In this document: positions 61,311-63,982 of the stretch, in pieces
Position numbering within the stretch: the stretch's first letter is position 1
Layout: every line of letters begins with the position of its first letter
DNA from: Sulfurimicrobium sp.
Lineage (GTDB): Bacteria > Pseudomonadota > Gammaproteobacteria > Burkholderiales > Sulfuricellaceae
Length of the DNA stretch: 64,000 bases
Direction: 5' to 3'
NCBI GenBank assembly: GCA_030652035.1
Contig: JAUSBJ010000009.1
Coordinates: 1 to 64,000, forward strand
Notes under the pieces: model-generated
What the model was told of the DNA's origin: nothing
What the model saw: the letters and a program-made list of their open reading frames with translations, nothing else
Database searches by the model: none
Position numbers and translations under genes: made by a program

Positions 61311-63008
61311 TCAGACCAGGTAGCCGTCGGCCCTTAACCGGCTGACTATCCGCTCCATCGCCTCGGCGACATGGAGATTGCCGGTGTTGATGCTCACTTC
61401 TGGCGCATGGGGCGTTTCATAAGGGGCGCTGATGTCGGTGACATCCTTGATGATGCCTGCTCGGGATCGGGTGTAAAGGCCTTTGGCGTCGCGTGTTTCG
61501 CAGATCCCCAGCGGCATGGAGACATGCACTTCAAAAAACCCGCCTAGCGGCTCGATCATGTCGCGCACCGCCTGCCGTGTTTCGCGGTAGGGAGCGATCG
61601 GCGCGCAAATGGCGATGCCGCCCTGCCGGGTGATTTCGGCAGCGACGAAGCCGATGCGGCGGATGTTCAAGTTGCGGCCGGTTCTGGAATTAGCGGGCCC
61701 GCTGGCTAGCAGGGTGTGCGCCATGTCTCCAGCCAGCAGTGTGACCGGCCGGCCGGTCAGCTCCATCAGTTTTGCCTCCAGCGCAAGCGATAGCGTGGCT
61801 TTCCCGGCACTGGAAAGCCCGGTGAAGAAAATGGTAAAGCCGCGTTTGTTCCTCGGCGGGTGGCGTATTTGCAACTCCTCTACCACTTCAGGGAAAGACG
61901 CCCATTGAGGGATGGATTCGCGGCCGTCGAGAATGCGCTGCTTCAGCTCCCGCGAGGAGAGGCTTTGCGTGTCCTGGCCGGGTGGCAGGTACTCCTCCGG
62001 CATGTACTGTTCCAGTTCCGGGACATAAACCATGCGCGGAAAAGTAATCGGCTCGACGCCGATGGTGGCGAAATGTTCGGCCAGGGGCTGAACCCGCCCG
62101 GGAGCGAGCGCATCGCTGCCGCGACGAATTTCGCCCGCACCCGCGTCGCCGCCGATGATGTAATGGGAACAGCCATGATTGCGCGCCACGATGGCCTTCC
62201 AAAGCACTTCGCGCATCCCCGCCTGGCGCGATGCCAGGGGCAGCAGCCCGAGCTGGGCCGTATTTTCGGGGTAGCGCGGCAGCAGCGCCTGGAGGCAGCG
62301 GATACGGGTAAAGTAATCCGGGTTCGACGCTTCGCCCGCGATGGCCTGGATCAACAGCCCGGCATCGTTATCCTCGGTGCAATGGCGGGTGAATTCGAAT
62401 TGGGCGCGGTGCATGACGTGGCAGGGCTGGAAGGCGATCGCCCGGCTGTGGCCTAGCCGTTTGAAATTTTCTCGCGCCATTGCAGGGGTCAGGCGCAGTG
62501 CGGCGAAATCCCCGTGCCGCGGCAGGGATAGTCCCTCCAGACGGCCACCAGCATAATGGCTGCCCAGTTGGTCGAGGTAATCCAGGCCGGCCTGGGCTGG
62601 CAGTTCGCAGCCATAAATCTGGCGTGCCTCCAGCGCCCTGTCGGCAGCCCACACGTCGCTTACGGCGAGAATGGCGAGTTTCTCGCCCGAGGCGTCGCAC
62701 AGCGCGATACGTGTTCCCGGCTGCATCGCCATGGCCTGCACCGCGCCGATATCGAGGACGATGGGCAGGGGCCAGAAAGTGCCGTTCGCGAGCAGCATTT
62801 CCGCCCCTACACGGTCAAAATCCGCGCGCTCCATGAAGCCCTGCAAGGGCGACAGGGCGCCGCTCAGCAGTAGTTCCAGGTCGCACAGCTGGCGCATGTT
62901 CAGGGTCAGGGTGGGAAGGGTGGCGGCTTCGCGCTGCAAATCTTCACGGTGTGCGCCTTCGGCCATGAGATCTACCAGTTTGCCGCCATAGGGAGAAATC
63001 AGGCCCAT
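61311..63008 (-). CDS. ATP sulfurylase/APS kinase fusion homologue with degenerate active sites
   Basis: The 565-residue protein has the full layout of the bifunctional Sat-CysC enzyme: PUA-like N-terminus (LTLNMRQLCDLELLLSGALSPLQGF), sulfurylase domain to about 380 and APS-kinase domain from 388. Signature residues are altered in both. The sulfurylase QTRNPxHRAH motif reads QPCHVMHRAQ (194-203), losing the Arg, Asn and second His; GRDHAG reads GGDAG (286-290). The kinase P-loop GLSGSGKST reads GLSSAGKAT (397-405), and LLDGD reads LLAGD (424-428). The remaining fold is well conserved (NLNIRRIGFVAAEITRQGGIAICAPIAPY), so this is a maintained paralogue, not a decaying gene. It overlaps the DHH gene stop by one base. 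A new substrate or a regulatory role is likely. Confidence 0.85.
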   Translation of the reverse strand: MGLISPYGGKLVDLMAEGAHREDLQREAATLPTLTLNMRQLCDLELLLSGALSPLQGFMERADFDRVGAEMLLANGTFWPLPIVLDIGAVQAMAMQPGTRIALCDASGEKLAILAVSDVWAADRALEARQIYGCELPAQAGLDYLDQLGSHYAGGRLEGLSLPRHGDFAALRLTPAMARENFKRLGHSRAIAFQPCHVMHRAQFEFTRHCTEDNDAGLLIQAIAGEASNPDYFTRIRCLQALLPRYPENTAQLGLLPLASRQAGMREVLWKAIVARNHGCSHYIIGGDAGAGEIRRGSDALAPGRVQPLAEHFATIGVEPITFPRMVYVPELEQYMPEEYLPPGQDTQSLSSRELKQRILDGRESIPQWASFPEVVEELQIRHPPRNKRGFTIFFTGLSSAGKATLSLALEAKLMELTGRPVTLLAGDMAHTLLASGPANSRTGRNLNIRRIGFVAAEITRQGGIAICAPIAPYRETRQAVRDMIEPLGGFFEVHVSMPLGICETRDAKGLYTRSRAGIIKDVTDISAPYETPHAPEVSINTGNLHVAEAMERIVSRLRADGYLV

Positions 63009-63982
63009 CAGGGGGTGCTCCCGGCGGGCTGGAATGCGCTTGCAAAACAGGCGAGGAAACGCTCCAGTTCATTTTCCGGCAAATGGTTGATCCCGGCGGC
63101 ACCCTTGCGCCCGCCGCCGCTTTCGAACTGACGGCACAGTTCGTCGGCGCCGGTCGGATTTTGGCGCGGGGCGCGCACGCTGACAAGGTAGCCGCCATGT
63201 GCCTTGCGGGTCAGCACGGCGTGGGCGAGGGCGGGTTCGGCGCGCGCCAGGTGATTGCCGAAAACCCCGCTGACACGTCTGCTCCAGGGCTGGTCGGGCA
63301 GGACGTAGGTGCAGCCGCCGGGGTGTTCCCATTCCGGCGTCAGCGCTTGTGCCAGCGCCATGTCATCCGCGTAGCCCTGTTTCAGGAGCGGGAAAGCAGA
63401 ATCATGCGCGATAAAATCCAGCGGGTCGGCATAAGGGTGCAGGCGGCGGTAAAGCTCGGCGGGATGGAAATACAAATCGTCCACGCTTTCGCCATAGGCG
63501 TTGTAGTTGAGGTATTCACCCAGCTCGCGCAAGGCGTCGAGCTGCCGTGGCGTGAGATCCAGAGGTGCGGCGGCGCGTGCCGCGGCTTGGTGCAGGTTGT
63601 CGCCAAAAGCCGCAACCACCGCCCAGGCACGGAATCGCCCTTGCAGCATGCGGTCGACCAGCAGGCTGGTGCAGACTTCAGGGTCCGGATCGATCAGCGC
63701 CCGCAGCAGAGGGTGGGCAGGAATTTCCCCGGCGTAGTGGTGGTCCACGTAAGTCACGCTCGCGCCTGCATCCAGCAGGCGCAGCAGGGCGGCGCGGTTT
63801 TTGTCGAGCGAGATATCCAGCGCGGTGACCTGGTCGCCGGTGCCGGCCTCTACCTGCTGCAACAGTGCAATGTCGCGCTTGATGCCGGTAACCAGGGTGC
63901 CGTCACAAGGTTCGGCGAGCCTGAGTTGATGAAGGGCGCAGATGCCGTCGGCATCGCCATTGAAGACGTCAAATGTGCTCAT
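63008..63982 (-). CDS. DHH-family phosphoesterase
   Basis: A 324-residue phosphoesterase of the DHH superfamily (RecJ/NrnA relatives). Metal ligands are visible in FNGDADGICALHQ (D10, D12), ALDISLD (D56) and the DHH motif VTYVDHHYAG (D80-H82); the C-terminal glycine-rich substrate loop reads QFESGGGRKGAAGINHLP. NrnA-type members cleave short RNAs and 3'-phosphoadenosine 5'-phosphate; which substrate applies here is unknown. It is translationally coupled to the sulfurylase/APS-kinase homologue, which hints at an adenylyl-phosphate type substrate. The start ATG is at 63982, 18 bases from the window edge, so upstream partners cannot be seen. Confidence 0.85.
   Translation of the reverse strand: MSTFDVFNGDADGICALHQLRLAEPCDGTLVTGIKRDIALLQQVEAGTGDQVTALDISLDKNRAALLRLLDAGASVTYVDHHYAGEIPAHPLLRALIDPDPEVCTSLLVDRMLQGRFRAWAVVAAFGDNLHQAAARAAAPLDLTPRQLDALRELGEYLNYNAYGESVDDLYFHPAELYRRLHPYADPLDFIAHDSAFPLLKQGYADDMALAQALTPEWEHPGGCTYVLPDQPWSRRVSGVFGNHLARAEPALAHAVLTRKAHGGYLVSVRAPRQNPTGADELCRQFESGGGRKGAAGINHLPENELERFLACFASAFQPAGSTP

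Follow-up and report, generated by a model that had tools for sequence, protein, structure and literature searches.

A predicted DHH-family PAP phosphatase encoded with a fused ATP sulfurylase/APS kinase homologue that appears non-catalytic in both halves

What does a fused ATP sulfurylase/APS kinase homologue (Sat-CysC) do once the catalytic motifs of both its halves have been replaced, and why is it encoded together with a DHH phosphoesterase? We addressed this question in a 64,000-nucleotide stretch of DNA from Sulfurimicrobium sp. (hereafter the window), in which the DHH ORF (63982-63008) and the fused Sat-CysC ORF (63008-61311) both lie on the minus strand. As the first-pass annotation had stated, the start of Sat-CysC overlaps the stop of DHH: they share one base within TGATG (63006-63010), the stop TGA occupying 63010-63008 and the ATG 63008-63006, an arrangement that makes translational coupling of the two genes likely. 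The fused protein (565 aa, 61311-63008) carries PUA_2, ATP-sulfurylase and APS_kinase domains in one chain, each above its Pfam cut-off, and its best NCBIfam match is NF004040 (bifunctional PAPS synthetase) at 639.9 bits, under the curated cut-off of 669. The replaced motifs announced for its two halves, QPCHVMHRAQ, GGDAG (286-290), GLSSAGKAT and LLAGD (424-428), were all present in the protein, which is predicted to be non-catalytic in both. A structure model of Sat-CysC built from five sequences had a pLDDT of 50 and was left out of use. Upstream of DHH, at and past the window end, lies a small divergent plus-strand gene (L006 3974-4357), also present in the genus mates G002 and G005, whose product looks by eye like a MazG-type pyrophosphohydrolase.

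The losses of the Sat site and of the kinase site have different histories. In the pseudo-ATP-sulfurylase half (residues 1-385, 61854-63008), QPCHVMHRAQ (194-203, 62400-62429) replaces QTRNPMHRxH and GGDAGAGEIRRG (62118-62153) replaces GRDHAGVGDYYG, and of the 131 columns invariant in 18 canonical Sats, 74 are altered in this half, among them R196, N197, H203, R287 and H289. Among 399 genomes of the order, 30 fused proteins matched the window Sat-CysC at E <= 1e-100, and 24 of the 30, window included, were immediately preceded by DHH in the same orientation, mostly at a spacing of -8 to +51 nt. The Sat site was degenerate in all 24 DHH-linked proteins, with HRAQ, QRMH, FRPQ etc. for HRxH and GGE/GGD...RRG for GRDHAG; fused proteins without an upstream DHH, G002 excepted, were of other kinds (HISKPMHRLH, HTSKPMHRLH, QPDRPMHRAH), and in the tree the DHH-linked proteins of several families grouped together. 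The best solved-structure match of Sat-CysC, the two-domain APS kinase of Thiobacillus denitrificans (Tbd_0210, PDB 3CR8), has the architecture of the window protein and a dead Sat half of the same kind (QARQPMHRAQ, GGE...RRG). It was reported to have no ATP-sulfurylase activity (Gay et al. 2009, cited in PMC3734648), and its Sat-like domain was predicted to stabilise the hexamer (2026 paper, PMC13213808). Two proteins 85-86% identical to 3CR8 (L161, L162) also have DHH upstream. Since the degenerate Sat is found in all DHH-linked proteins, including the kin of 3CR8, a dead Sat beside DHH is an old, shared trait and not a novelty of the window.

Loss of the kinase half was far more restricted. 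The 3CR8 kinase half has canonical motifs (GLSGAGKST, LLDGD) and was published as an APS kinase, whereas the window kinase has lost key residues; the intact motifs of the T. denitrificans type (GxSGxGKS/T, LDGDxxR) are missing in the window but present in the genus mates G004 and G005 (GLSGAGKTT and LLDGDVVR) and nearly all kept in G003 and G001 (LLDSD; GLPGAGKTT). In the pseudo-APS-kinase half of the window (residues 386-565, 61314-61853), the P-loop reads GLSSAGKAT (397-405, 61794-61820), the Mg2+ ligand Ser/Thr having become Ala404; LLAGDMAH (61716-61739) replaces LLDGDVVR (D426A, V430A, R431H), and the lid, RDAKGLYTRSRAGIIKDVTDISAPYE (61416-61493), is altered at conserved columns (A513T, K514R, A515S, F523V, G525D, D528A). 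In M. tuberculosis CysC, Ser457 is a Mg2+ ligand, Asp478 holds a Mg2+-bound water and Arg483 contacts the APS phosphate (PMC4373884); their counterparts by alignment are Ala404, Ala426 and His431. From these residues we infer that the fused protein would have lost its kinase activity, although retention of the P-loop Lys403, the base Asp428 and the lid Lys509, together with Arg445 and Asn448, leaves room for residual activity. The broken kinase half is confined to the window and its sister G002 (100/99 support), in which Lys403, Asp428 and Arg431 are all lost, and because both carry Ala404, Thr513 and Val523, their common ancestor is the most likely starting point of the loss. The idea that a broken kinase recurs with DHH across the order was ruled out by the canonical kinase half of every DHH-linked fused protein outside the genus.

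Selection, too, differed between the halves. With omega estimated from a purpose-written branch codon model on nine sequences, the Sat half gave 0.22 in the window, 0.17 in G002 and 0.16 elsewhere, a non-significant difference, and the kinase half gave 0.25, 0.21 and 0.08, respectively (p=2e-4), a relaxation of about threefold; each of the four combinations of half and branch departed significantly from omega=1 (p from 0.005 to 9e-12). When conserved columns were defined as those kept in >=95% of 33 homologues, the window had changed 0/36 in the Sat half versus 13/67 in the kinase half (p=0.004) and G002 2/36 versus 30/67 (p=2e-5), the other genus mates having changed 2 to 6 of about 68 kinase-half columns. 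The window kinase changes were not enriched at active-site loops (10/41 versus 3/26 in the rest of the domain, p=0.23), so we make no claim that they target the active site; those of G002 were (23/41 versus 7/26, p=0.025). Sat-CysC had no stops and no frameshifts in the window genome or in G002, where it carries in-frame deletions. Thus, the kinase half is relaxed yet non-neutral and the Sat-like half is fully kept, which casts doubt on simple decay. The DHH gene evolved on the window branch at an omega of 0.098, similar to the value of its relatives, with neutrality rejected (p=8e-7). Taken with the recurrent linkage and a DHH/Sat-CysC single ORF in one genus mate, this purifying selection bears out the earlier claim that the pair is coupled and under selection. 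The claim that the pair had been repurposed stood to that extent only: the halves did not undergo such a change together, the Sat half being dead order-wide and the kinase lost only in the window and G002. Likewise, the degenerate motifs did recur with a DHH neighbour in the Sat half, but not in the kinase half, which is intact almost everywhere.

The DHH partner (324 aa, 63008-63982), a DHH-DHHA1 phosphoesterase, is a predicted PAP phosphatase. Its metal ligands were indeed intact, as proposed: D10 and D12 in motif I (NGDADG, residues 8-13, 63944-63961), D56 in motif II (63815-63817; Asp57 of MtPAPP by spacing), H81 and H82 in motif III (Asp80-His81-His82, 63737-63745) and D128 in motif IV (63599-63601; Asp127 of MtPAPP by spacing). 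These ligands, the four motifs, R270, G289-G291 and the substrate-side DHHA1 motif GGGR (289-292, 63107-63118) were invariant in 57 homologues, as was Asn8, the first motif-I position, which is neither His nor Asp. The family is broad, extending over Proteobacteria and their neighbours; no NCBIfam model covers it, and the window protein scores under the Pfam gathering cut-offs (PF01368, 16.2/28.1 bits; PF02272, 16.8/25.9 bits), so its membership of the DHH superfamily is assigned from fold and motifs. The predicted structure (pLDDT 95.6) has the DHH-DHHA1 fold. Foldseek ranked the PAP phosphatase of Methanothermococcus thermolithotrophicus (MtPAPP, 8a8k; E 3e-13, equal length) first among its matches, and VIA-align tied it with RecJ-type and archaeal RecJ/Cdc45 structures (Z 23.5 versus 24.3). 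Sequence searches gave no match below E 0.2 to a DHH protein of solved structure; MtPAPP itself could reportedly not be aligned with other DHH proteins (PMC10322725). The M. thermolithotrophicus enzyme and the P. yayanosii pApase hydrolyse PAP and have their genes together with those for ATP sulfurylase and APS kinase, and G285/K287 of the P. yayanosii enzyme, the counterpart of GGGR, are required for activity (PMC10322725, PMC8268124). The window DHH resembles these two PAP phosphatases (8A8K and that of Pyrococcus yayanosii) in fold, length, metal-ligand spacing and ATPS/APSK neighbourhood, and matches by spacing their metal ligands (motifs I-IV), Arg (VI) and Gly-Gly (VII). It differs from the archaeal enzymes in being bacterial, in having GGGR at the motif-VII site and in showing no detected sequence relationship beyond the DHH motifs. 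We infer from these likenesses that PAP is its substrate.

The distribution of DHH is consistent with such a substrate. In about 15 of 80 fetched DHH loci, the neighbouring gene encoded an APS kinase in the same orientation, in most cases preceding DHH, the opposite of the window order; in more distant bacteria DHH stood beside APS kinase in a different gene order (L028, L029, L037, L044, L050, L052, L054, and further L060, L064, L071, L074, L078, L086). In G004, DHH, pseudo-Sat and APS kinase form one uninterrupted ORF of about 905 codons (L092 463-3180). Within the genus, DHH was found in all six genomes that hold an intact APS kinase anywhere (G000, G001, G003, G004, G005, G006; that of G001 is cut by a contig end and was counted as present) and was absent or deleted in 2/2 without one (G002, G007; Fisher p=0.036 for eight genomes that are few, phylogenetically dependent and in part drafts). 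G007 has neither gene. G002 has no PF13469 sulfotransferase either, and its DHH (L168, G002:C7, around 80820-81050) is an in-frame remnant of about 77 codons that retains motif I, the DHH motif and the C-terminus only; it nevertheless still ends in TGATG where Sat-CysC begins, as though ribosomes still had to pass through it. Such tracking of APS kinase by DHH agrees with a PAP phosphatase that is required in PAPS-producing genomes. The association was weaker among 61 relatives than within the genus (20/8/12/21, p=0.0098), and in 12/61 DHH was present while no APS kinase was detected, so sulfate-derived PAP is perhaps not the only substrate of DHH. Acyl-carrier-protein synthesis also yields PAP, which could account for DHH in genomes without APS kinase. 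Moreover, the gene directly upstream looks by eye like dihydroorotate dehydrogenase (pyrD) in 14/80 DHH loci, e.g. L025, and the presence of this or other upstream genes indicates that the family is not bound to sulfate genes everywhere. G003 carries a second DHH copy (G003:C247:2803-3750, L172), 64% identical and distant from Sat-CysC, an identity level similar to that of sister genus copies. A literature search that reached few subscription journals found no description of a bacterial DHH-APS kinase pair, and one for pseudoenzyme and ATP sulfurylase gave no match.

We then considered the remaining sulfate-activation genes of the window genome (3.27 Mb, 51 contigs, about 90% complete), in which a second, canonical sat/cysC had been suggested as a check. 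Both functions were found separately. A canonical stand-alone sat belongs to a sat-aprBA operon (L008), as would be predicted for a sulfur oxidiser, and a second APS kinase (L007 7576-9141, minus strand, G000:C41) has intact GLSGSGKST and LLDGDNVR, is fused to a CysN-like half with lost GTPase motifs (GSAGSGKRT, LDAGEQ) and adjoins an asparagine-synthetase-like gene and EPS-type genes. The genome thus has, in this CysN-like half, a second pseudo-domain joined to an APS kinase, and ORFs sized like the L007 fusion that carry an APS kinase domain are also present in G001, G003 and G006. No CysH-type PAPS/APS reductase was found in the window genome and a sulfotransferase of family PF13469 was present, which suggests that PAPS, if made, would more likely serve sulfation than cysteine synthesis. 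Two FIG-superfamily phosphatases were also present, one of them CysQ-like but under the CysQ cut-off, so DHH need not be the sole PAP phosphatase; PF00459 matches occurred in every genome and do not separate CysQ from SuhB and others.

On balance, we favour with moderate confidence the reading that DHH acts as a PAP phosphatase associated with PAPS synthesis, and that its fused partner, once an APS kinase with a dead Sat-like domain, is now non-catalytic in this species. The ancestor of the pair would be a widespread bacterial PAPS module, in which an APS kinase bearing a catalytically dead Sat-like domain was co-translated with DHH. APS supplied by sat or AprBA would be converted to PAPS by APS kinase and the PAPS consumed by a sulfotransferase, and the leftover PAP, the toxic product of sulfate donation, would be hydrolysed by DHH. 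In most relatives the fused protein would perform the kinase step with the support of its Sat-like half. In the window/G002 ancestor the kinase half would have lost its Mg2+ ligand and later other active-site residues, leaving the window fused protein most likely non-catalytic in both halves and the kinase duty passed to the second APS kinase; as the latter can still make PAPS, DHH would be retained in the window genome. Since selection still keeps the fused protein, above all its Sat-like half, it is probably a structural or ligand-binding partner. What a Sat-like domain can do is illustrated by the Entamoeba histolytica APS kinase, in which, as in the window family, a non-catalytic Sat-like domain is fused to the kinase and its removal lowers the kinase kcat about 100-fold; that enzyme differs in being an active kinase of a separate lineage with no DHH partner described (PMC13213808). 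A kinase-independent function of the pseudo-Sat half itself, as a non-catalytic APS/PAPS-binding or scaffold protein derived from sulfate-activation enzymes, is a tentative proposal that we regard as possible, because the GG-E/D...RRG residues are held after both sites were lost and, in G002, after DHH was lost too.

The rival explanations divide over the fused protein and over DHH. A kinase half that is still active, slowly or with another metal or acceptor, Ala404 and Ala426 merely weakening Mg2+ binding, would agree with the five retained residues and with a kinase-half omega below 1 (0.25, p=0.005); we judge it improbable, given that three direct or second-shell Mg2+/APS residues and six lid positions are replaced, that the sister G002 is without the P-loop Lys, Asp428 and Arg431, and that the genome has another APS kinase. 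Even less probable is a functionless pseudogene at an early stage of decay: the threefold relaxation of the kinase half in the window and G002 (p=2e-4), and the in-frame deletions and gutted DHH of G002, would be expected of it, but neutrality was rejected for each half in the window and in G002 alike, the Sat half was kept at 36/36 conserved columns in the window and 34/36 in G002 against kinase-half losses of 13/67 and 30/67, and in both genomes the ORF is free of stops and frameshifts and TGATG is kept.

A sensor or regulator, whose halves would bind APS, PAPS or ADP and regulate either the coupled DHH or a different enzyme, has an analogy in fungal ATP sulfurylase (1I2D, 1M8P). There the dead kinase half, an allosteric domain with a published PAPS-binding role, is altered in alignments at the P-loop and LDGD sites that are altered in the window (GKD for GKS, LLLGD for LLDGD); the fungal enzyme differs in that its own Sat half is active, whereas the window Sat motifs are lost. 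The Sat-like half kept after kinase loss and the DHH/Sat-CysC fusion of G004 would also suit such a role. However, G002 keeps Sat-CysC without DHH, so control of DHH cannot be the whole role, and we consider a sensor rather unlikely; DHH, which the first-pass annotation saw as repurposed with Sat-CysC, perhaps to sense or process a metabolite, fits a PAP phosphatase accompanying PAPS synthesis better than it fits a sensor's partner. That DHH is instead a nanoRNase or another phosphodiesterase in an incidental APS kinase neighbourhood seems to us similarly doubtful. Its fold is tied with RecJ and near NrnA relatives, it adjoins other genes in many genomes, and APS kinase went undetected in the 12/61 relatives noted above; against this stand its recurrent occurrence next to APS kinase on the same strand, in either gene order, the gene fusion in G004, the loss of DHH where APS kinase is lost, and a PAP phosphatase as the best Foldseek E-value.

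DHH as a PAP phosphatase tied to PAPS synthesis would represent a candidate bacterial family that travels with APS kinase, in parallel to the archaeal pApases. Its fused partner would illustrate the stepwise loss of two enzymes in one protein whose fold is still under selection. The genus offers a natural series, from G004 and G005, in which the kinase is intact, through the window, in which its site is damaged, to G002, in which the site is gone and DHH gutted, and this series makes the role of the Sat-like pseudo-domain directly testable.
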